DNA of 32,401 nt, from contig JAPFCT010000134.1 in assembly GCA_026169575.1 (NCBI GenBank), positions 1-32,401 of the forward strand, read 5' to 3'. The DNA is from Faecalimonas sp. (GTDB lineage: Bacteria; Bacillota_A; Clostridia; Lachnospirales; Lachnospiraceae). Each line of letters starts with the position of its first letter. Within the stretch, counting starts at the first letter, position 1. A program made the position numbers and the translations under genes. Of the stretch, positions 692 to 29,727 are shown in pieces. The notes beneath the pieces are model-generated. The model saw nothing but the letters and a program-made list of their open reading frames with translations, ran no database searches and was not told the origin of the DNA.

Positions 692-716
692 ACTGATTAG
701 ACACAACATATTGTAG
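681..716 (+). promoter_or_regulatory. Likely NrdR operator region upstream of nrdD
   Basis: ACACAACATATTGTAG at 701-716 differs at three positions from an idealised NrdR box (ACACAATATATTGTGT, written from memory of the family consensus). A second palindrome, AGTAT-CATA-ATACT, is at 681-694; its centre is 21 bases upstream, two helical turns, and it covers the -10 box. NrdR usually binds paired boxes at ribonucleotide reductase promoters, and a nrdR gene is present at 14035. The second site is a weak match to the NrdR consensus, so only 701-716 is a good call. Confidence 0.55.
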
Positions 717-735
717 AGAAAGGGCGATAGACGGG

Positions 736-3021
736 ATGATTAGAAGTATTATCAAAAGGGATGGCCGTGTGGTACTGTATGATGAGAGCAAGATTGCAGC
801 GGCTATTTTGAAGGCGATGGAGGCAGCAGGAGAAGGGAATGCTACGGATGCCGCGAATGTGGCAAATGATGTGCAGAGTAAGCTTGAGAGACTGCCGGAA
901 GATATGCCGCCGCAGATCGAACAGGTACAGGATACGGTGGAGCGTGCTTTGATGAAAAAGGGATTTGAAGAGTCTGCAAAGAAATTTATTTTATACCGGG
1001 CGCAGAGAACGCACATCCGGGAAGCGAATACGAGCCTGATGAAGACGATCGATGAGATTACAAATATTGATGCGCGCGAGAGTGATATGAAGCGTGATAA
1101 CGCAAACATTGACGGAAATACTTCTATGGGAAGCATGCTGCAGATCGGAGCAGCGGGAGCGAAAAATTATAATGAGGCATACCTGCTGACACCAGAGCAG
1201 GCGAAAGCGTACCGGGAGGGAGATATCCATATCCATGATTTTGATTTTTATTCGTTGACAACAACTTGTACACAGATCGATATTGAAAAATTATTTCAGG
1301 GAGGATTTTCTACCGGACATGGTGTGATCCGGGAGCCCCAGTGCATTCAGAGTTATGCAGCGCTGGCTGCGATTGCGATCCAGTCAAATCAGAATGACCA
1401 GCATGGAGGACAGAGTATTCCGAACTTTGATTACGGTCTTGCAAAGGGAGTGGCAAAGTCTTTTAGAAAAATTTATAAAAAGCAGCTTACAGAGGCTGTG
1501 GAAGATCTGGCAGATCTTGACGATGAAGAAACCCGGGTTGCGGAAATGCTGGACAGAATTGAGCAGACATCAGGCCTTTGTCCGAAATTAAAACAGGAGG
1601 AAGAGGCATTTGACCGTGCTGTTCAGGCGGAACTTTGCGGGAAGTATCAGTTTACAGAAGAAAAAGCGGCTCATATCGCGGAGAAGGTAAGAAAACGTAC
1701 TGAAAAGTATACAGAGCGGGATACTTACCAGGCGATGGAAGGATTTGTACATAATTTGAATACGATGCACAGCCGGGCGGGTGCGCAGACACCATTTTCG
1801 TCTATCAATTACGGGACCGATACAAGTCCGGAGGGAAGGATGATCATTCGAAATGTGCTGCTTGCAACGGATGCGGGACTTGGAAATGGGGAGACTTGCA
1901 TTTTCCCGATCCATATTTTCAAAGTGAAAGAAGGGGTCAACTATAATGAAGGAGATCCGAACTATGATTTATTCCGTTTAAGCTGCAAAGTCAGTGCAAA
2001 GAGATTATTCCCGAACTTTGTATTTCTGGATTCGCCGTTTAACCTTCAATATTATAAGCCAGGGCATCCGGAGACAGAGGTGGCAACGATGGGATGCCGC
2101 ACCCGGGTCATGGGAAATGTCTATGATCCGGAACATGAGATCGCTTATTCAAGAGGAAATCTGTCATTTACGTCGATCAACCTGCCGCGCCTTGCGATTG
2201 AGAGTAAGGGAGATGAGAAAGTCTTTTATCAGAAGCTGGATGCCATGCTGGAGCTTGTTGCAAAACAGCTGATGGATCGTTTTGAGATCCAGGCGAAGAA
2301 ATGTGTATATAATTATCCATTCCTCATGGGTCAGGGAGTATGGCTGGATTCAGAAAAACTGGGGCCGAATGATGAAGTAAGGGAAGTATTAAAGCATGGA
2401 ACACTTTCTATCGGATATATCGGGCTGGCAGAAACACTGACGGCCTTGTATGGGAAGCATCACGGGGAAAGTGAAGAGATGCAGCAAAAAGGGCTTGAGA
2501 TCATCGGGCATATGCGTGCATTTACAGATGCAAAGGCGAAAGAAACGAAGATGAATTATACATTGCTTGCAACACCTGCAGAAGGCTTGTCCGGGCGTTT
2601 TATCCGTATGGACCAGAAACGTTATGGAAAAATTGCCGGAGTTACAGACAGAGAATATTATACAAACAGTTTCCATATTCCGGTCTGGTATCCGATTTCC
2701 GCGTATGAAAAGATCAGAAAAGAGGCGCCATATCATGCGCTGTCAAATGGCGGACATATCAGTTATGTAGAGCTTGACGGGGATACTGCGAAAAATGTGG
2801 AGGCATTTGAAAGCGTGATCCGCTGTATGCATGATGCAGGGATTGGTTACGGAAGTGTCAATCACCCGGTAGACCGAGATCCGGCATGTGGTTATGTTGG
2901 CGTGATCGATGATGTCTGTCCGAGATGCGGACGGAGAGAAGGAGAGCCGATCAGCGAGGAAAAATTAAAAGAGCTGAGAAAACTTTATCCGGAGATGCCG
3001 CAGTTTTGCGGTTGCAGATAG
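736..3021 (+). CDS. nrdD: Anaerobic (class III) ribonucleoside-triphosphate reductase, large part, lacking the glycyl-radical segment
   Basis: This 761-residue cytoplasmic enzyme reduces ribonucleoside triphosphates to deoxyribonucleotides for DNA synthesis without oxygen. Residues 1-95 form an ATP-cone (allosteric) domain. The catalytic core follows, with Cys178 in TTTCTQID and the finger-loop Met452-Gly-Cys454 (TMGCRTRV). A Met two residues before that Cys is typical of the formate-dependent NrdD1 type. Near the end are Cys718, Cys728 and Cys731 (CPRCGRR), expected to hold structural zinc, and a final Cys758-Gly-Cys760. The family normally continues within a few dozen residues into an R-x-x-GYL radical loop. 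Here TAG (3019-3021) stops translation first, and the loop is encoded by the next ORF in the same frame. The start follows the ribosome binding site GAAAGGG. Alternative reading: one gene interrupted by a nonsense mutation. Confidence 0.96.
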   Translation: MIRSIIKRDGRVVLYDESKIAAAILKAMEAAGEGNATDAANVANDVQSKLERLPEDMPPQIEQVQDTVERALMKKGFEESAKKFILYRAQRTHIREANTSLMKTIDEITNIDARESDMKRDNANIDGNTSMGSMLQIGAAGAKNYNEAYLLTPEQAKAYREGDIHIHDFDFYSLTTTCTQIDIEKLFQGGFSTGHGVIREPQCIQSYAALAAIAIQSNQNDQHGGQSIPNFDYGLAKGVAKSFRKIYKKQLTEAVEDLADLDDEETRVAEMLDRIEQTSGLCPKLKQEEEAFDRAVQAELCGKYQFTEEKAAHIAEKVRKRTEKYTERDTYQAMEGFVHNLNTMHSRAGAQTPFSSINYGTDTSPEGRMIIRNVLLATDAGLGNGETCIFPIHIFKVKEGVNYNEGDPNYDLFRLSCKVSAKRLFPNFVFLDSPFNLQYYKPGHPETEVATMGCRTRVMGNVYDPEHEIAYSRGNLSFTSINLPRLAIESKGDEKVFYQKLDAMLELVAKQLMDRFEIQAKKCVYNYPFLMGQGVWLDSEKLGPNDEVREVLKHGTLSIGYIGLAETLTALYGKHHGESEEMQQKGLEIIGHMRAFTDAKAKETKMNYTLLATPAEGLSGRFIRMDQKRYGKIAGVTDREYYTNSFHIPVWYPISAYEKIRKEAPYHALSNGGHISYVELDGDTAKNVEAFESVIRCMHDAGIGYGSVNHPVDRDPACGYVGVIDDVCPRCGRREGEPISEEKLKELRKLYPEMPQFCGCR

Positions 3022-3078
3022 AAGAATCGACAGGATATCCAAATGAGGTTTGGATGTGTGATAGAAAGGAAGAGTATC

Positions 3079-3225
3079 ATGGAAGAAAAATGCGTAATTG
3101 GAAAAGATGTAAAATTTGAGAGAATCAGAAGAATCACAGGTTATCTCGTAGGAACTATGGATAAGTGGAATGATGCGAAGAAAGCGGAAGAGAGAGACAG
3201 AGTAAAGCATGGACTGGGACGATAG
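3079..3225 (+). CDS. nrdD: Separate glycyl-radical domain of NrdD (48 residues)
   Basis: This short ORF carries the part missing from the large nrdD product. It contains FERIRRITGYLVGT, where Gly21 is the predicted radical glycine, and ends in a basic helix (NDAKKAEERDRVKHG) as usual for NrdD C-termini. It is in the same frame as the large ORF, separated by one TAG and 57 bases. AAAGGA (3065-3070) lies 8 bases before ATG 3079, so independent translation is well supported; an earlier in-frame ATG at 3043 has no clear ribosome binding site. It overlaps nrdG by 17 bases, suggesting translational coupling. The arrangement resembles GrcA/YfiD, a free-standing glycyl-radical part for pyruvate formate-lyase, but here it would be the only copy. 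That it assembles with the large subunit is inference. Confidence 0.85.
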   Translation: MEEKCVIGKDVKFERIRRITGYLVGTMDKWNDAKKAEERDRVKHGLGR

Positions 3226-3739
3226 AAAGATAAGGCTTGCAGGGATCGCAGGGGACAGTATTGTAGATGGTCCGGGGATCCGCATGACATTGTTTGCCCA
3301 GGGGTGTCCGCATCACTGCAATGGTTGTCATAACCCGGAAACGTGGGAATTTGACGGAGGCACCTGGTGGTCAACAGAGGATCTTATCAAAGTAATCAGC
3401 GAGAATCCGCTTGCCAGAGGAGTAACATTTTCTGGTGGAGAGCCGTTTAGCCAGGCGGAGGGATTTGCAGAACTGGCAGAAAAGTTAAAGGAAAATGGAT
3501 ACGAGGTGGCAAGTTATTCCGGATTTACCTTTGAGGAGCTTTTAAATGGCACGCGGGAGCAGAGACGACTTCTGGAAACGTTGGATGTGCTGATCGACGG
3601 GCCTTATCTTGAGTCAGAGAGAAGCCTATCGCTTGCTTACCGGGGAAGCAGAAATCAGAGGATCATTGCGGTGCCGGAGAGTCTGCAAAGTGGAAAAGCT
3701 GTGGAGATTTCTTCGGGAAGATGGCAGGGAGAATATTAG
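3209..3739 (+). CDS. nrdG: Anaerobic ribonucleoside-triphosphate reductase activating protein (radical SAM)
   Basis: NrdG uses S-adenosylmethionine and a [4Fe-4S] cluster to abstract a hydrogen from the radical glycine of NrdD. The 176-residue length is normal for the family. The cluster motif Cys33-x3-Cys37-x2-Cys40 is in FAQGCPHHCNGCHNPE, preceded by DGPGIRM, and the SAM-contacting TFSGGEP is present near residue 76. ATG 3209 lies inside the end of the small glycyl-radical ORF, so the two are probably translated together. The ribosome binding site is weak (AGAGACAGAG), which fits coupling. The activase lies directly next to the detached radical peptide, its expected substrate. Confidence 0.95.
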   Translation: MDWDDRKIRLAGIAGDSIVDGPGIRMTLFAQGCPHHCNGCHNPETWEFDGGTWWSTEDLIKVISENPLARGVTFSGGEPFSQAEGFAELAEKLKENGYEVASYSGFTFEELLNGTREQRRLLETLDVLIDGPYLESERSLSLAYRGSRNQRIIAVPESLQSGKAVEISSGRWQGEY

Positions 3740-5376: not shown

Positions 5377-6840
5377 ATGAAAAAGTATGGAAAGAGGATG
5401 CAGTTTGATCCAATGACCGGGGAGCCGATCGACCCGGATGCGAAATTCGATCCAATGACCGGGGAACCGATCGATCCGGATGCAAAATTTGATCCGATGA
5501 CCGGGGAACCGCTCACCGGAAGATATACAAGGCCGCAGAGAAACAGAAAGAAGATGGTGATCGTCGGGACAGCTGCGGCTGTTGCTGTGATCGGACTTAC
5601 GGTATTTGGAGTTGTGAAAAGCGGGATTTTCTTTAGCGATACAACGAAGGTGATGATCGCTGCGGCAAATACAGCAAAAGATATCGGGCATTTCAAGGAG
5701 ACGGCAAAAGCGGCAGAGATCTTCCGTTCCGGAGAATATACAGCAATGCTCCATGCTGAAGCAGAAGGAGTTCTGGCGGAGGCGAAAATTGCAGCAGGAG
5801 AAACGAAAGTACAGATTGCGGCAAACGTAGACTTGCCGGAATCAGAAACGGTAAGTGCTCTTGCTGAGATGAATAAAAATGAAGTCAGAGCAGAAGTACC
5901 GGCGATCAGTGATAAAATGTTTGCCTACAATTATAACGGAGAAAAGGGCGGATATCTTGCGGAAGAGGAAGATCTGGAGGAAATCGATGACATCCTGCAG
6001 TCAGTAAGAGAGGCTTTCGTGAAAGAAAAAGACATGGGAAGTATGTGGAAAGAACTGGTCGGGGCGCTGTCGGAGGAATGGAAAGAAACAGAATTTACGA
6101 AGACAAGTCCGGAAGAATATGAAGTGGATGGAAAATTCAGAAAGTGCAAAGGGTATACGGCATCGCTCTCAGAACGGGATTTGGAAGATCTGCTCTCTGT
6201 GACTGAAGATGTCATCATGGATCATTATGACCGTGGATATGGAGAAAAATTGTTATCCAATCTCTTTGCAAGTGCAGAATATGCTCTGGAGGATCTGTCT
6301 GATCTGGGCCTGACTTGTTATATTTATAAAAGAAAGCTGGCAGCAATCCAGCTGGAGATAGATGGAAATGAGCTGGAGATCCACTTCCTCGGGGGAGATA
6401 CAAGAATCCAGAATATGGAGGTTATTGCCGAGGATGAGACGGTCGTTGAGATAGAGGGTCAGACTGATGGAACAACAGAATTTGCTTCCCTTTACATAGA
6501 AGGAGAAGAAGTTTTAGAAACAGAATATGACACAAAGTCCGGGAAATATGAGATTGGGCTTACGCAGGATGATATCGCGCTCTCAGGAGTATTTCTGGCA
6601 GATAAGAAAAAAATAGAATTGTCAGCAGAATCAATAGAAGTTTATGGGGATTCTGTTGGAGCAGACTTTCAGCTTTCAATCCAGAAAGGGGTAGAATTCC
6701 AGAAGTTTGAAGGGGAAGTATTTGATGTCGGGGAAGCTTCTGAATCTGAACTGGAAGATCTGGCAGAGGAGGTCCTGGATCAGATTGAAGATAATGAGGA
6801 TCTGGAAGACTTTGTGTATGAACTTGAGTATTATCTTTAG
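5377..6840 (+). CDS. Membrane-anchored protein with N-terminal 14-residue repeats, function unknown
   Basis: This 487-residue protein begins with a short cytoplasmic part containing FDPMTGEPIDPDAK twice in tandem (residues 10-23 and 24-37) and a third partial copy (38-45). A basic stretch (RPQRNRKK) precedes one membrane segment, about residues 60-85 (VIVGTAAAVAVIGLTVFGVV). The rest, roughly 400 residues, is predicted to be outside, strongly acidic and rich in Glu and Asp, with no Cys-based anchor; it ends in VYELEYYL. The topology is therefore N-in, C-out without a cleavable signal. It lies 40 bases after the ABC ATPase and 14 bases before the first permease, so a role as accessory or substrate-handling part of that transporter is plausible. 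I do not recognise the family; any function is inference. Confidence 0.85.
   Translation: MKKYGKRMQFDPMTGEPIDPDAKFDPMTGEPIDPDAKFDPMTGEPLTGRYTRPQRNRKKMVIVGTAAAVAVIGLTVFGVVKSGIFFSDTTKVMIAAANTAKDIGHFKETAKAAEIFRSGEYTAMLHAEAEGVLAEAKIAAGETKVQIAANVDLPESETVSALAEMNKNEVRAEVPAISDKMFAYNYNGEKGGYLAEEEDLEEIDDILQSVREAFVKEKDMGSMWKELVGALSEEWKETEFTKTSPEEYEVDGKFRKCKGYTASLSERDLEDLLSVTEDVIMDHYDRGYGEKLLSNLFASAEYALEDLSDLGLTCYIYKRKLAAIQLEIDGNELEIHFLGGDTRIQNMEVIAEDETVVEIEGQTDGTTEFASLYIEGEEVLETEYDTKSGKYEIGLTQDDIALSGVFLADKKKIELSAESIEVYGDSVGADFQLSIQKGVEFQKFEGEVFDVGEASESELEDLAEEVLDQIEDNEDLEDFVYELEYYL
5404..5511 (+). repeat. Tandem 42-bp coding repeat (2 full copies and a partial third)
   Basis: The units 5404-5445 and 5446-5487 encode the same 14 residues, with a few silent base differences, and 5488-5511 repeats the first eight codons. 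In-frame 42-base units could change copy number by slippage. The complement is also open over this stretch, which is only a by-product of the repeat. Confidence 0.9.
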
Positions 6841-14034: not shown

Positions 14035-14487
14035 ATGAAGTGTCCTTATTGTAATAATCCAGATACGAAAGTAATTGATTCCAGACCGGCGGATGACGGC
14101 AGTTCGATCCGGCGCCGCCGTGCCTGCGATGAGTGCGGCAAGCGGTTTACGACTTATGAAAAAGTAGAGACAATCCCGCTGATCGTGATCAAAAAAGATG
14201 ATAACAGAGAGCAGTATGACAGAAGGAAGATTGAGTCCGGGGTACTCAGCGCCTGCTACAAAAGACCGGTTTCGGCAGATCAGATCCAGAAATTTATAGA
14301 AGAGGTGGAGACCGAGATCTTCAGCAGGGAAGAAAAAGAGATCCCAAGCAAGGTGATCGGAGAGATCGTGATGGACAAGCTAAAAGAACTGGATGCAGTT
14401 GCCTATGTAAGATTTGCTTCTGTGTACCGGGAATTTAAGGATGTCAATACCTTTGTGGAAGAGTTAAAATCGATTCTTGACAAGTAA
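14035..14487 (+). CDS. nrdR: Transcriptional repressor NrdR
   Basis: A 150-residue regulator that senses ATP/dATP and represses ribonucleotide reductase genes. The N-terminal zinc ribbon has Cys3, Cys6, Cys31 and Cys34 (MKCPYCNN, CDECGKRF), followed by the ATP-cone (residues about 49-139) starting PLIVIKKDDNREQYDRRKI. Length and order are standard. ATG 14035 follows GGAAGGGGAAGC; an upstream in-frame ATG at 13978 adds residues not found in the family. The likely targets include the nrdD promoter of this window, which carries a matching palindrome at 701-716. Confidence 0.97.
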   Translation: MKCPYCNNPDTKVIDSRPADDGSSIRRRRACDECGKRFTTYEKVETIPLIVIKKDDNREQYDRRKIESGVLSACYKRPVSADQIQKFIEEVETEIFSREEKEIPSKVIGEIVMDKLKELDAVAYVRFASVYREFKDVNTFVEELKSILDK

Positions 14488-25490: not shown

Positions 25491-25588
25491 TAAAACAATG
25501 TAAATTCGAAAAAGAATTTCATATGGGTTATAGAAAAAATTAACGTAAGTTGTAAAAAGTTCCCAGGTGGGGAAAGGTGGAGGGGATC

Positions 25589-26500
25589 ATGAACAATCCT
25601 GAGATTATGAATATTCAGAAATATTCCATCCATGATGGGGATGGGATCCGGACGACGGTCTTTTTTAAAGGTTGTCATTTAAAATGCTGGTGGTGCCACA
25701 ATCCGGAAAGCCAGAAATTCACACCGCAGTTGATGTTCCATGCGGACCGGTGTGGAGGATGCCATGCATGTGAGCAGATCTGCAGTCATCATGCGGTTAC
25801 GGTGGAGAATGGTGTTGCATGTACAGACCGGACAAAATGTGAACTTTGCAGGGAGTGTCTGGATCACTGTGTCAATAATGCGAGAGAGATCGTCGGCAAA
25901 GAATATACAATCGCAGAACTGATGAAAGAGATTGAAAAGGACTGCATGTTTTATGAAGAGTCCGGCGGAGGAGTGACATTGTCCGGCGGTGAAGTCATGG
26001 CGCAGAATATGGATTACATCGAGCAGCTGTTAAAGAAGCTGAAACGGAAAGGATACAATGTGGCGATCGATACGTGCGGTTATGCACCGCGGGAGAACTA
26101 TGAGAGGGTGCTTCCTTATGTAGATACGTTTCTATATGATATCAAGACAATGGATCCGGTGAAACATGAAAAATATATGGGGAAAGATAATGCACTGATC
26201 TTGTCGAATCTCCGTTTTATCAGTAAGCATGGAGCCAGGATCTATATCCGGATCCCGGTGATCGGCGGGGTCAATGATACGGAGGAGGATATGGATGCGA
26301 TCATAGATTTTCTGAAGAAATCTATTTCTGTCAGCCAGGTCAATCTGCTTCCGTATCATAAGATTGCCGGAGGAAAATATGACAAGCTGGATATCAGGTA
26401 TAAAGGGGATGCATTTACAATCCCGCCAAAAGAACAGATGGAAGCATTTCAGAGACAATTTATCCAAAATGGATTTGCAAATACAAAAATCGGAGGTTGA
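25589..26500 (+). CDS. Glycyl-radical enzyme activating protein for HypD (radical SAM)
   Basis: A 303-residue radical SAM enzyme that installs the glycyl radical on the neighbouring dehydratase. The SAM cluster motif is C-HLK-C-WW-C (FFKGCHLKCWWCHNPES). An inserted ferredoxin-like part follows with CGGCHACEQIC and CELCRECLDHC, two clusters of C-x2-C-x2-C-x3-C type, as is usual for activases of this family. TLSGGEVMAQ is the SAM-binding GGE motif. The common GPGIRTT reads GDGIRTT here. ATG 25589 follows GGAGGGG; the GTG at 25577 is an alternative start, adding four residues. The HypD start lies two bases after this stop, showing tight coupling. Often called HypD-AE. Confidence 0.93.
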   Translation: MNNPEIMNIQKYSIHDGDGIRTTVFFKGCHLKCWWCHNPESQKFTPQLMFHADRCGGCHACEQICSHHAVTVENGVACTDRTKCELCRECLDHCVNNAREIVGKEYTIAELMKEIEKDCMFYEESGGGVTLSGGEVMAQNMDYIEQLLKKLKRKGYNVAIDTCGYAPRENYERVLPYVDTFLYDIKTMDPVKHEKYMGKDNALILSNLRFISKHGARIYIRIPVIGGVNDTEEDMDAIIDFLKKSISVSQVNLLPYHKIAGGKYDKLDIRYKGDAFTIPPKEQMEAFQRQFIQNGFANTKIGG

Positions 26501-26502
26501 TC

Positions 26503-28875
26503 ATGGGAAGAGGTATGAACGAAAGAATTCAGAAACTGAGAGAACAGAGTGTGGAGGCGATCCCACATATTTATATGGAACGTGCGGATCTGGAGACGGA
26601 CGCGTATATGATGTATGAAGGTTCTGTCAGTGTGCCGGAGATGCGGGCGCTGGCATTTAAGCATTTTATGGCAAATAAGACACTTTGTATCAATGAAGGA
26701 GAACTGATCGTCGGAGAGAAAGGAGACAGCCCGCAGTCGGCGCCGACATTCCCGGAACTTTGCTGTCATACGCTGGAGGACATGCATGTGATGAATGACC
26801 GGGATTTGATCAGTTTTAAAGTGACAGAGGAAGATTTAAAACTTCAGAAGGAGAAGATTATCCCATACTGGGAGAATCGTTCTATCCGTCATAAGATCCT
26901 TCATAACATGAGTAAGCAGTGGAAAGAATGCTATGAGGCAGGGATTTTCACGGAATTTATGGAGCAGAGAGGACCGGGGCACACCGTTGGTTCTGAGAAG
27001 ATCTACAAAAAAGGATTTCTCGATTACAAGCAGGATATCATCGAGAGCAGAAACCGTCTGGATTTTCTCAATGACAAGGAAGCGCTTGACAAGCGTGCGC
27101 AGTTAAATGCGATGGAGATCGCCTGCGATGCGATCATGATCCTCGGAGAGCGTTATGCGGCGCTTGCAAGAGAACTTGCAGAGAAAGAGGAAGATGAAGT
27201 AAGAAAGCAGGAACTGCTGCAGATTGCGGCAAACTGCGATGTGGTTCCGGCGCATGCGCCGCAGACGTACTGGCAGGCGATCCAGATGTACTGGTTCGTA
27301 CATCTTGGGGTGACGACGGAGTTGAATCCATGGGATGCATACAGTCCGGGAAGACTGGACCAGCATTTGAATCCGTTCTATGAGAGAGATACCGAGGCGG
27401 GGATTTTAGACGATGAGAAGGCGCTGGAACTTTTAGAGTGTCTCTGGGTGAAATTTAACAATCAGCCTGCACCGCCAAAAGTAGGTATCACCTTAAAAGA
27501 GAGCAGCACTTACACGGATTTTGCCAATATCAACACCGGAGGGATCACGCCGGATGGACAGAACGGAGTCAATGAGGTCAGCTATCTGATCTTAGACTGT
27601 ATGGATGAGATGAAGCTTCTGCAGCCAAGCTCCAATGTACAGATCAGTAAGAAGACACCGATGAAGTTCTTAAAGCGTGCCTGCGAGATTTCTAGAAAAG
27701 GATGGGGACAGCCGGCATTTTATAATACGGAGGCGATCATCCAGGAATTGTTAAATGCGGGAAAATCGATCGAGGATGCAAGAAGAGGCGGAACGAGCGG
27801 ATGTGTGGAGACCGGTGCGTTTGGAAATGAAGCGTATATTCTGACCGGATATTTCAACCTTCCGAAGATTTTAGAGATCACACTGCACAATGGATTTGAT
27901 CCGGTCAGCAAAAAGCAGCTCGGACTTCAGACTGGGGAAGCGACAGAGTTCCATTCTTATGAGGAACTGTTTGATGCTTATAAAAAGCAGGTAGAATATT
28001 TTGCAGATATCAAAATGGAAGGAAGCAATATCATTGAGAAGATCTATGCAGAATATATGCCGGCGCCATTTTTGTCAGTGATCACAAACGACTGTATTTC
28101 CACCGGAAAAGATTACAATGCCGGAGGAGCGCGCTATAACATCAACTACCTGCAGGGGGTAGGGATCGGTACGATCACAGACTCTCTGACAGCGATCAAA
28201 TACAATGTGTTTGATGAGAAGAAGTTTACGATGGCAGAGCTGATGGAAGCGATGGAGCATAACTTTGAAGGATACGAAATGATTGCAAATCTTGTACGCA
28301 ACAAGACGCCGAAATATGGAAATGACGATGACTATGCGGATGATGTGATGCAGGCAGTTTTTGACTTTTATTATCACACGGTGACCGGAAGACCAAATAT
28401 GAAGGGTGGTACTTACCGGATCAATATGCTCCCGACGACGTGCCACGTGTATTTCGGTGAGGTAATGCTGGCAAGTCCGAACGGACGTCTCGCGCACAAG
28501 CCGGTATCAGAAGGAATCTCCCCGGAGAAAGGTGCAGATATCTGCGGTCCGACCGCAGTTGTGAAATCTGCTTCCAAAATGGATCATGTGCGGACCGGAG
28601 GAACACTTCTGAATCAAAAATTCACACCGAGTGTTGTTGCAGGGGAAGAAGGACTGACACAGATGGCAAATCTTGTGCGCAGCTACTTCAATATGGATGG
28701 ACATCATATCCAGTTCAATGTCATTGACAGACAGACGCTGATCGATGCCCAGAACAACCCGGAAGAGTATAAGGATCTGATCGTTCGTGTGGCAGGATAC
28801 AGTGACCATTTCCGAAATCTGAGCAAGGCGCTTCAGGACGAGATCATTGAACGTACAGAACAATCATTTAATTAG
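26503..28875 (+). CDS. hypD: Trans-4-hydroxy-L-proline dehydratase (glycyl-radical enzyme)
   Basis: This 790-residue glycyl-radical enzyme dehydrates trans-4-hydroxy-L-proline to 1-pyrroline-5-carboxylate in the cytoplasm. The thiyl-radical Cys434 (GTSGCVETG) and the radical Gly765 (RVAGYSDHF) fall at the same numbers that I recall for the Clostridioides difficile enzyme. So do its reported active-site residues: Phe152, His160, Asp278, Ser334, Asp339, Phe340, Glu436, Tyr450 and Thr645. The numbers were counted here; their roles are from published work as remembered. This separates it from pyruvate formate-lyase, choline lyase and glycerol dehydratases. ATG 26503 lies 6 bases after GGAGG; a TTG at 26497 is less likely. 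proC follows 42 bases later, as expected for the pathway. Confidence 0.96.
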   Translation: MGRGMNERIQKLREQSVEAIPHIYMERADLETDAYMMYEGSVSVPEMRALAFKHFMANKTLCINEGELIVGEKGDSPQSAPTFPELCCHTLEDMHVMNDRDLISFKVTEEDLKLQKEKIIPYWENRSIRHKILHNMSKQWKECYEAGIFTEFMEQRGPGHTVGSEKIYKKGFLDYKQDIIESRNRLDFLNDKEALDKRAQLNAMEIACDAIMILGERYAALARELAEKEEDEVRKQELLQIAANCDVVPAHAPQTYWQAIQMYWFVHLGVTTELNPWDAYSPGRLDQHLNPFYERDTEAGILDDEKALELLECLWVKFNNQPAPPKVGITLKESSTYTDFANINTGGITPDGQNGVNEVSYLILDCMDEMKLLQPSSNVQISKKTPMKFLKRACEISRKGWGQPAFYNTEAIIQELLNAGKSIEDARRGGTSGCVETGAFGNEAYILTGYFNLPKILEITLHNGFDPVSKKQLGLQTGEATEFHSYEELFDAYKKQVEYFADIKMEGSNIIEKIYAEYMPAPFLSVITNDCISTGKDYNAGGARYNINYLQGVGIGTITDSLTAIKYNVFDEKKFTMAELMEAMEHNFEGYEMIANLVRNKTPKYGNDDDYADDVMQAVFDFYYHTVTGRPNMKGGTYRINMLPTTCHVYFGEVMLASPNGRLAHKPVSEGISPEKGADICGPTAVVKSASKMDHVRTGGTLLNQKFTPSVVAGEEGLTQMANLVRSYFNMDGHHIQFNVIDRQTLIDAQNNPEEYKDLIVRVAGYSDHFRNLSKALQDEIIERTEQSFN

Positions 28876-28917
28876 GAAAGCTGTTTTTTGGAGCTACTGT
28901 GAAAGGAGAAGAGAAAT

Positions 28918-29727
28918 ATGGAGAAGAAATTAGGATTTATCGGTGCCGGAAATATGGCAAAGGCGATGATGGGCGGAATTTTAAAAAATAAACTTCTGCT
29001 GCCAAAAGAGGTGATCGCATCAGATCTTTATCTGCCGGGGCTGGAGCAGACGAAGGAAGAGCTTGGAATCTCTGTGACAACAGATAATAAAGAAGTGGTG
29101 AAAACTGCAGAAGTAGTCATTCTGTCTGTAAAACCGCAGTTTTACGCGTCTGTGATCGAAGAGATACGGGAATTTGTGACAGCGGAGCAGATCATTGTTA
29201 CGATTGCTCCGGGGCAGACACTGGAACAGTTGCAGGAACTGTTTGGAAAACCGGTAAAGATCGTCCGGACGATGCCGAATACACCGGCGCTTGTCGGAGA
29301 GGGGATTACAGGGATCTGCAAAAATGAACTGGTGACAGAGGAAGAACTTTCTTATGTCTGCAAGATTTTCAGCGGATTTGGAAAGGCGGAAGTGTTAAGT
29401 GAAAAGCTGATGGATGTAGTAGTATCTGTGAGCGGAAGTTCACCGGCATATGTCTTTTTATTTATCGAAGCGATGGCAGATGCGGCAGTGGCAGACGGAA
29501 TGCCGCGGGCGCAGGCATATCAGTTTGCGGCACAGGCAGTCTATGGAAGTGCGAAGATGGTACTGGAAACCGGAAAACACCCGGGAGAATTAAAAGATAT
29601 GGTATGTTCGCCGGGGGGAACGACGATCGAGGCAGTGCGTGTGCTGGAAGAAAAAGGATTCAGAAGCAGTGTCATTGAAGCCATGAAAGCGTGCGTAAAA
29701 GTTGCAAAAGAGCTCGGAAAGAAGTAA
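28918..29727 (+). CDS. proC: Pyrroline-5-carboxylate reductase
   Basis: A 269-residue NAD(P)H enzyme that reduces pyrroline-5-carboxylate to L-proline. The N-terminal Rossmann motif is GFIGAGNMAKAM (residues 6-17), the central part has RTMPNTPALVGEG and the C-terminal dimer domain has the signature SGSSPAYVFLFIEA and CSPGGTTIEA. AAAGGAG precedes the ATG. The gene follows hypD directly, so here it most likely turns the HypD product into proline rather than serving only proline biosynthesis; the hypD-proC pair is known from Clostridia. Whether the cell has another proC is not visible. Confidence 0.96.
   Translation: MEKKLGFIGAGNMAKAMMGGILKNKLLLPKEVIASDLYLPGLEQTKEELGISVTTDNKEVVKTAEVVILSVKPQFYASVIEEIREFVTAEQIIVTIAPGQTLEQLQELFGKPVKIVRTMPNTPALVGEGITGICKNELVTEEELSYVCKIFSGFGKAEVLSEKLMDVVVSVSGSSPAYVFLFIEAMADAAVADGMPRAQAYQFAAQAVYGSAKMVLETGKHPGELKDMVCSPGGTTIEAVRVLEEKGFRSSVIEAMKACVKVAKELGKK

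Follow-up and report, generated by a model that had tools for sequence, protein, structure and literature searches.

In the window analysed here, a 32,401-nucleotide (nt) stretch of DNA from Faecalimonas sp. (assembly GCA_026169575.1, contig JAPFCT010000134.1), the nrdD gene for a class III ribonucleotide reductase (RNR) stops before its glycyl-radical loop, and the loop is found on a second open reading frame (ORF) of 48 codons that overlaps nrdG. Is this a broken gene, or an enzyme made of two chains? De novo supply of DNA precursors depends entirely on RNR, and oxygen kills glycyl-radical enzymes by cleavage at the radical glycine. The solved NrdD structures (T4, P. copri and S. thermophilus) consist of one chain, whereas here a break within the glycyl domain separates the zinc ribbon from the glycine loop. 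Judged from sequence, the locus very likely encodes a two-chain class III RNR, in which an NrdD of 761 amino acids (aa) would be completed by a 48-aa peptide, termed NrdD-S, supplying the strand, the radical loop and the tail.

The large ORF ends in QFCGCR followed by TAG (fuller ending CPRCGRREGEPISEEKLKELRKLYPEMPQFCGCR) and contains no R-x-x-G-Y-L motif. Located 57 nt beyond this stop and in the same frame, the small ORF runs from ATG 3079 to TAG 3225; its peptide begins MEEKCVIGKDVKFERIRRITGYLVGT and carries the glycyl-radical loop RRITGYL within FERIRRITGYLVGT. The nrdG start (3209) overlaps the small ORF by 17 nt. This layout, including the stop at 3019-3021 and the ribosome-binding site AAAGGA 8 nt from the small ORF, had been described in the initial annotation and was confirmed on the ORFs. 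The two ORFs match complementary parts of the same profiles: in Pfam NRDD (PF13597) the large ORF covers positions 1-531 of 562 (621.8 bits) and the small ORF 524-562 (E 1.6e-9), and in NCBIfam NF005497 the two pieces cover 1-711 and 701-744 of 746. These ranges indicate that the two pieces are one NrdD, with the division falling after the zinc ribbon and ahead of the radical glycine. The NF005497 score of 1085.9 bits (cut-off 764) identifies a class III RNR, the large chain carries an ATP cone (PF03477, 72 bits) and matches P. copri NrdD (8p23) at E 9.2e-176, and a cognate NrdG scoring above the TIGR02491 cut-off is encoded nearby; the glycyl loop, usual on the same polypeptide, is on a separate ORF. 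Among named proteins, those most similar to the C-terminal region of the large chain come from Lachnospiraceae, two of them from Faecalimonas. The NrdR-box-like site upstream has 2 mismatches to the consensus and is weak alone, as the window holds 3 matches at up to 3 mismatches versus 0.74 expected.

We then compared nrdD loci from named genomes, taking the best 80 of 587, ranked by how closely they resemble the window, so that no prevalence can be drawn from them. A large ORF was found in 77 of the 80 loci, 37 of them split and 40 fused (L050, L052 and L069 had no large ORF by motif). The 37 splits, 18 more and the window make up a set of 56 linked splits; the duplicate loci L087, L089 and L090 were excluded from tree and counts. 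All 56 carry the small ORF downstream, preceded in every case by a Shine-Dalgarno-like word of at least 4 nt, the start codon having been picked for the best match. The 32-residue core of the small peptide has 18 invariant positions. By our own uncorrected counts, in which some synonymous values exceed 1, the median proportions of synonymous (pS) and nonsynonymous (pN) differences are 0.75 and 0.11, and pN is as high as pS in 1 pair out of 1540, which indicates strong purifying selection. In 43 of the 56 loci an nrdG motif lies no more than 400 nt after the small ORF. For 10 loci, a search over 3 kb found no such motif; the sequence of one of them extends only 414 nt past the small ORF. In the protein collection, at least 7994 of 8000 candidates are matches of 26-84 aa to the small peptide, some of them surely contig-end fragments; one 48-aa protein (P0105), which recurs on 1000 contigs, has the same sequence as the Gemmiger An87 small ORF. 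Such peptides bear database names such as 'anaerobic ribonucleoside-triphosphate reductase' or 'hypothetical protein'. The initial annotation had favoured a real split over a mutation, and the small ORF in 56/56 linked loci, its conservation and the unlinked copies described below uphold that view.

The large chain was compared at its end as well. The pattern D-x-x-C...C-x-x-C is present in all 107 NrdD chains (41/41 fused, 56/56 linked split and 10/10 unlinked split), and by analogy with known NrdD structures these residues would bind zinc. Between the last zinc cysteine and the loop strand there are 8-10 residues in fused NrdD (41/41); past that cysteine, linked split chains continue for 30-53 residues (56/56) and unlinked split chains for 19-26 residues of a different kind (10/10). 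In the window this extension is predicted to form a helix (model residues 741-750; block predicted local distance difference test score, pLDDT, 87). The terminal Cys-Gly-Cys had initially been thought to complete the zinc site; this idea fails, because a C-x-C terminus occurs in only 9/56 linked splits and the full set of zinc residues is present without it.

In 12 genomes nrdD and the radical protein are found on different contigs; ten of these were read at sequence level, and two (G191 and G298) were assigned from match positions. The unlinked small protein has about 90-105 residues, in which some 50 residues, predicted to fold as a beta-alpha-beta-beta domain, precede the loop. In a model of the longer free-standing form this domain reached a pLDDT of 72, and a Foldseek search with it gave no match at E<=0.001 (best hit, a hibernating-ribosome chain, E 0.025, template modelling score 0.27). 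The unlinked large chain ends in a remnant of the loop strand, [ED]R[IV]xR, in 10/10 unlinked versus 0/56 linked splits, so that the chain breaks off right ahead of the missing glycine.

The longer free-standing form also accompanies an intact, fused NrdD: of 20 genomes picked from fused loci, 8 have it. In an order-level sample of 297 genomes, at least 44 hold this form, 31 of them with an intact NrdD; of the other 13, 12 are the unlinked splits and one (G206) is unassigned. One of the 31 (G261) has in addition a large chain of the unlinked kind. In all six side-by-side cases that were read, the free-standing gene directly adjoins the intact nrdD. Living genomes thus present a three-stage series of fused only, fused plus free copy, and free copy only, and we infer that it ran in this direction. 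Free-standing NrdD-type glycyl-radical proteins of about 90-120 aa, carrying an additional N-terminal domain, were observed in L092 (2521-2820), L131-L138 and L146-L151, most of them beside or with an intact NrdD, and these are candidate RNR spare parts. A free-standing-like match in G324 (Victivallis) was not recognised by the motif script. L155, considered as a split, was rejected as a fragment with a zinc ribbon, and the free-standing homologues P0267 and P0269, which lack the Pfam NRDD label, are probably errors, the aligned row of P0267 being without the loop.

Some genomes have more than one peptide. The window's nearest row in the tree, locus L001, holds two radical peptides in one nrdD-nrdG locus (2940-3556). 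The nrdD gene and peptide 1 are followed by a terminator-like hairpin, and peptide 2, which overlaps nrdG, comes after promoter-like and NrdR-box-like sequences (Table 1); these sites are consensus matches only, with one promoter-like and one terminator-like match found versus 0.4 expected of each. Genome G087 has a linked split nrdD and three peptides in all, including unlinked ones on C10 and C12 (L153 and L154), and G232 has a linked split nrdD and two peptides, including an unlinked one on C2 (L152). The arrangement in L001 and the multi-peptide genomes suggest that peptide supply may be separately controlled.

We re-read 60 genomes of the order sample that had two matches with a best E above 1e-199, a choice that enriches for splits, with 36 others having three or more matches; single-match genomes and the remaining two-match genomes lie outside the re-read set. 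Split nrdD was found in 41 of the 60, 31 linked and 10 unlinked. A second intact NrdD is absent from all 41, and in 25 the class I/II large subunit (PF02867) was not found, so that there the detached peptide should be the sole radical carrier. This supports the earlier proposal of a GrcA-like peptide that serves as the only carrier. Across the order sample, a class I/II match is present in 43/297 genomes. Separately, frames of 787-832 aa with weak Ribonuc_red_lgC matches (E 2e-15 to 4e-11) were seen in G217, G101, G095, G059, G081, G251, G124 and G125, and perhaps represent an odd RNR-like family.

A fresh nonsense mutation or a sequencing error breaking nrdD in this strain alone could be suspected from the fused homologues, 40 of the 77 loci with a large ORF, yet it is highly improbable. 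Close relatives had been named as the place to look for an uninterrupted ORF, and the two smallest starred tree sets containing the window (21 and 23 rows) consist of split loci throughout. A protein from another record (P0121) has 761 aa, 98% agreement over the C-terminal region and the same last residues, FCGCR, and a further record (P0001), not shown to share one genome with P0121, matches the small piece at 98% with the same end. Such near-identical pieces exclude a sequencing error at TAG 3019, a concern raised at the outset, and both the long extension of linked chains, where fused chains have 8-10 residues, and the purifying selection on the small ORF speak against recent damage. Read-through or recoding of the TAG to give one long NrdD would suit the window, where both ORFs are in one frame and no second stop intervenes. 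Over the 56 linked splits, however, the large chain stops at TAA (38), TGA (15) or TAG (3), the small ORF lies in frame 0, 1 or 2 relative to the large one (20, 22 and 14 loci), and the gap varies from 1 to 336 nt, which rules out read-through as a general mechanism. With unlinked copies, a ribosome site of the small ORF's own and a read-through spacer predicted to be disordered (pLDDT ~36), we regard it as scarcely credible for the window too. An intein, intron or homing endonuclease does not fit the 57-nt gap of the window, which is too short, nor the gaps of 1-336 nt, although no Rfam intron search was made.

The remaining alternatives accept the pair as real. Another intact NrdD or RNR in the window's genome might do the work and leave the pair as a side system or spare, which we consider unlikely. 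Among 20 genomes from which split loci came, 9 encode another full-length NrdD and a class I/II match occurs in 5, and PF02867 was found in 16 of the 41 re-read split genomes, five of them weakly; against this, no other RNR was found in 25/41 of the re-read split genomes, 6/20 genomes of split loci have neither a second NrdD nor a class I/II match, and the window pair sits with nrdG behind an NrdR-box-like site. A stronger contender, which we hold to be a serious possibility somewhat short of an even chance, is that the split is functional and the peptide is a permanent, tight subunit, a neutral accident with no repair or exchange. In its favour, linked splits mostly adjoin nrdG in one gene row, and the split class II NrdJab acts as a tight complex according to the available part of PMC4520616. 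Less easily reconciled with a permanent subunit are the 12 genomes whose radical proteins are encoded apart from nrdD, the L001 locus with its second peptide behind promoter-like and NrdR-box-like sequences before nrdG, the three peptides of G087 and the free-standing copies beside intact NrdD.

In the exchangeable-peptide reading, NrdD-S would dock where the fused loop sits and NrdG would place the radical on it. As the peptide is small and separately made, one cut by oxygen at its glycine could be swapped without remaking NrdD, and such exchange and repair after damage are plausible. The route probably began with a free copy of the loop, resembling GrcA, that served as backup to an intact NrdD before it became the only copy. 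Taken as a whole, the picture of an RNR of many gut Clostridia whose exchangeable radical peptide evolved from a spare part into the sole carrier, so that oxygen would cost a 5-kDa peptide and not an entire RNR chain, with several peptides, perhaps separately controlled, competing in some genomes for one large chain, is in our judgement evenly poised. Besides the other RNRs counted above, several points weigh against the reading of a two-chain enzyme. Many split genomes are metagenome-assembled genomes, in which 'no other RNR' could reflect a missing contig; the order sample was requested at 95% completeness, with per-genome values not printed, and single absences are therefore soft, though 31 genomes agree. 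The Shine-Dalgarno count is favoured by the choice of start codons. The glycine loop (model residues 801-811) has a pLDDT below 50 in a one-chain model whose long weak stretches were trimmed before superposition, which makes docking modest evidence.

At least 75 of the 297 genomes in the order sample are split by match positions (31 + 28 + 4 linked and 12 unlinked; G093 and G136, among the 28, were judged at contig ends). One of the split genomes, G237, has a linked split on a single 4.0-Mb contig, and also a class I/II match. In a class-level sample, 125/392 genomes match the small peptide, and 28/392 have it in a free frame below 160 aa, a count that takes split and spare-part forms together and excludes the G551 fragment and a piece of 32 aa in G509; the remaining matches mostly fall within fused frames. 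The split is a minority trait across the class. On a quick tree of 107 rows, split versus fused needs 7 changes. The approximately unbiased (AU) test rejects a single clade of linked splits (p 3e-10) and a single clade of all splits (p 3e-5), and does not reject one clade of unlinked splits (p 0.97). Linked splits share a similar extension that is absent from 41/41 fused chains, which makes gene transfer as likely as repeated splitting.

Table 1. Coordinates of the nrdD locus in the window and of control-like sites in locus L001
Feature	Sequence	Position	Strand	Basis or remark
NrdR-box-like palindrome ACACAACATATTGTAG	window	701..716	+	5' of nrdD
nrdD large chain, 761 aa	window	736..3021	+	ATP cone, catalytic barrel, zinc ribbon and C-terminal extension; without glycyl loop
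Zinc ribbon residues D-x-x-C ... C-x-x-C (DPACGYVGVIDDVCPRC)	window	2878..2928	+	pattern match
Large-chain C-terminal extension, helix EEKLKELRKLY	window	2929..3018	+	sequence comparison and structure prediction
Large-chain stop TAG	window	3019..3021	+	ORF reading; P0121, another record, ends at the same residue
Ribosome-binding site AAAGGA for small ORF	window	3065..3070	+	8 nt before ATG 3079
Detached glycyl-radical peptide, 48 aa	window	3079..3225	+	radical Gly codon GGT 3139-3141
nrdG, radical S-adenosylmethionine activase	window	3209..3739	+	TIGR02491 143.8 bits, cut-off 126.1
NrdR gene	window	14035-14484
Terminator-like hairpin	L001	3085-3109		after nrdD and peptide 1
Promoter-like pair	L001	3313-3341
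NrdR-box-like site, one mismatch	L001	3348-3363		ahead of peptide 2

Elsewhere in the window, a CRISPR-like array (2-370) lies just upstream of nrdD, with six copies starting GTCGTACCCTTCGTGGGTACGTGGATTGAAAT at a spacing of 65-69 nt; the last two copies are altered and the array may extend past the window edge. A further glycyl-radical enzyme, trans-4-hydroxyproline dehydratase (HypD), is encoded as a single chain with its activase and a proC-type pyrroline-5-carboxylate reductase (25577-29727). A protein at 5377-6840 starts with three FDPMTGEP repeats followed by an apparent transmembrane stretch, judged by eye.

The closest parallels are GrcA/YfiD and T4 Y06I, small free proteins whose glycyl-radical loop is a copy of the one in a large enzyme, and unlinked NrdD chains end just before the glycine like the oxygen-cut pyruvate formate-lyase (PFL) that YfiD repairs; the available part of that 2021 source states that only YfiD and Y06I have been validated as spare parts and that others may exist (PMC8683613). 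Unlike GrcA, NrdD-S is derived from NrdD and is the only carrier found in 25/41 split genomes, not a backup. In NCBIfam, GrcA models included, NrdD models and no GrcA model were matched by the small ORF (searched to E 1) and by six related free-standing peptides (searched to E 10). The class II NrdJa/NrdJb of Pseudomonas aeruginosa is likewise an RNR in two parts, a large catalytic chain and a small one that are both required in vivo, although NrdJb serves thiol-disulfide exchange and not radical storage (PMC4520616, in the part available). Phage nrdD also occurs in coding pieces, which the accessible text of PMC3653736 attributes, for single phages, to introns, inteins, homing endonucleases or a recent break that is unexplained; the cut described here is, in contrast, conserved in many species and has a ribosome site for the second piece. 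We found no split NrdD in cells in the accessible portions of the open-licence literature, although a mention elsewhere is possible, and the word 'split' is absent from the part of the 2009 RNRdb paper that could be consulted (PMC2795772). In P. copri NrdD the glycyl domain loosens with dATP and is regulatory, as far as the available excerpt describes it (PMC11226230).

Length filters discard radical peptides of this kind, as would the removal of sequences below 400 residues from a 2022 RNR tree, noted in the available part of PMC9531940. If the radical is indeed carried on a detachable peptide, then repair, activation by NrdG and regulation through the glycyl domain would become directly testable with a small peptide, and the spare-part idea, validated for PFL alone according to the accessible part of PMC8683613 (2021), would extend to an essential enzyme. 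The arrangement is common to many related gut bacteria, and it may let these cells renew the damaged radical part without rebuilding the enzyme.
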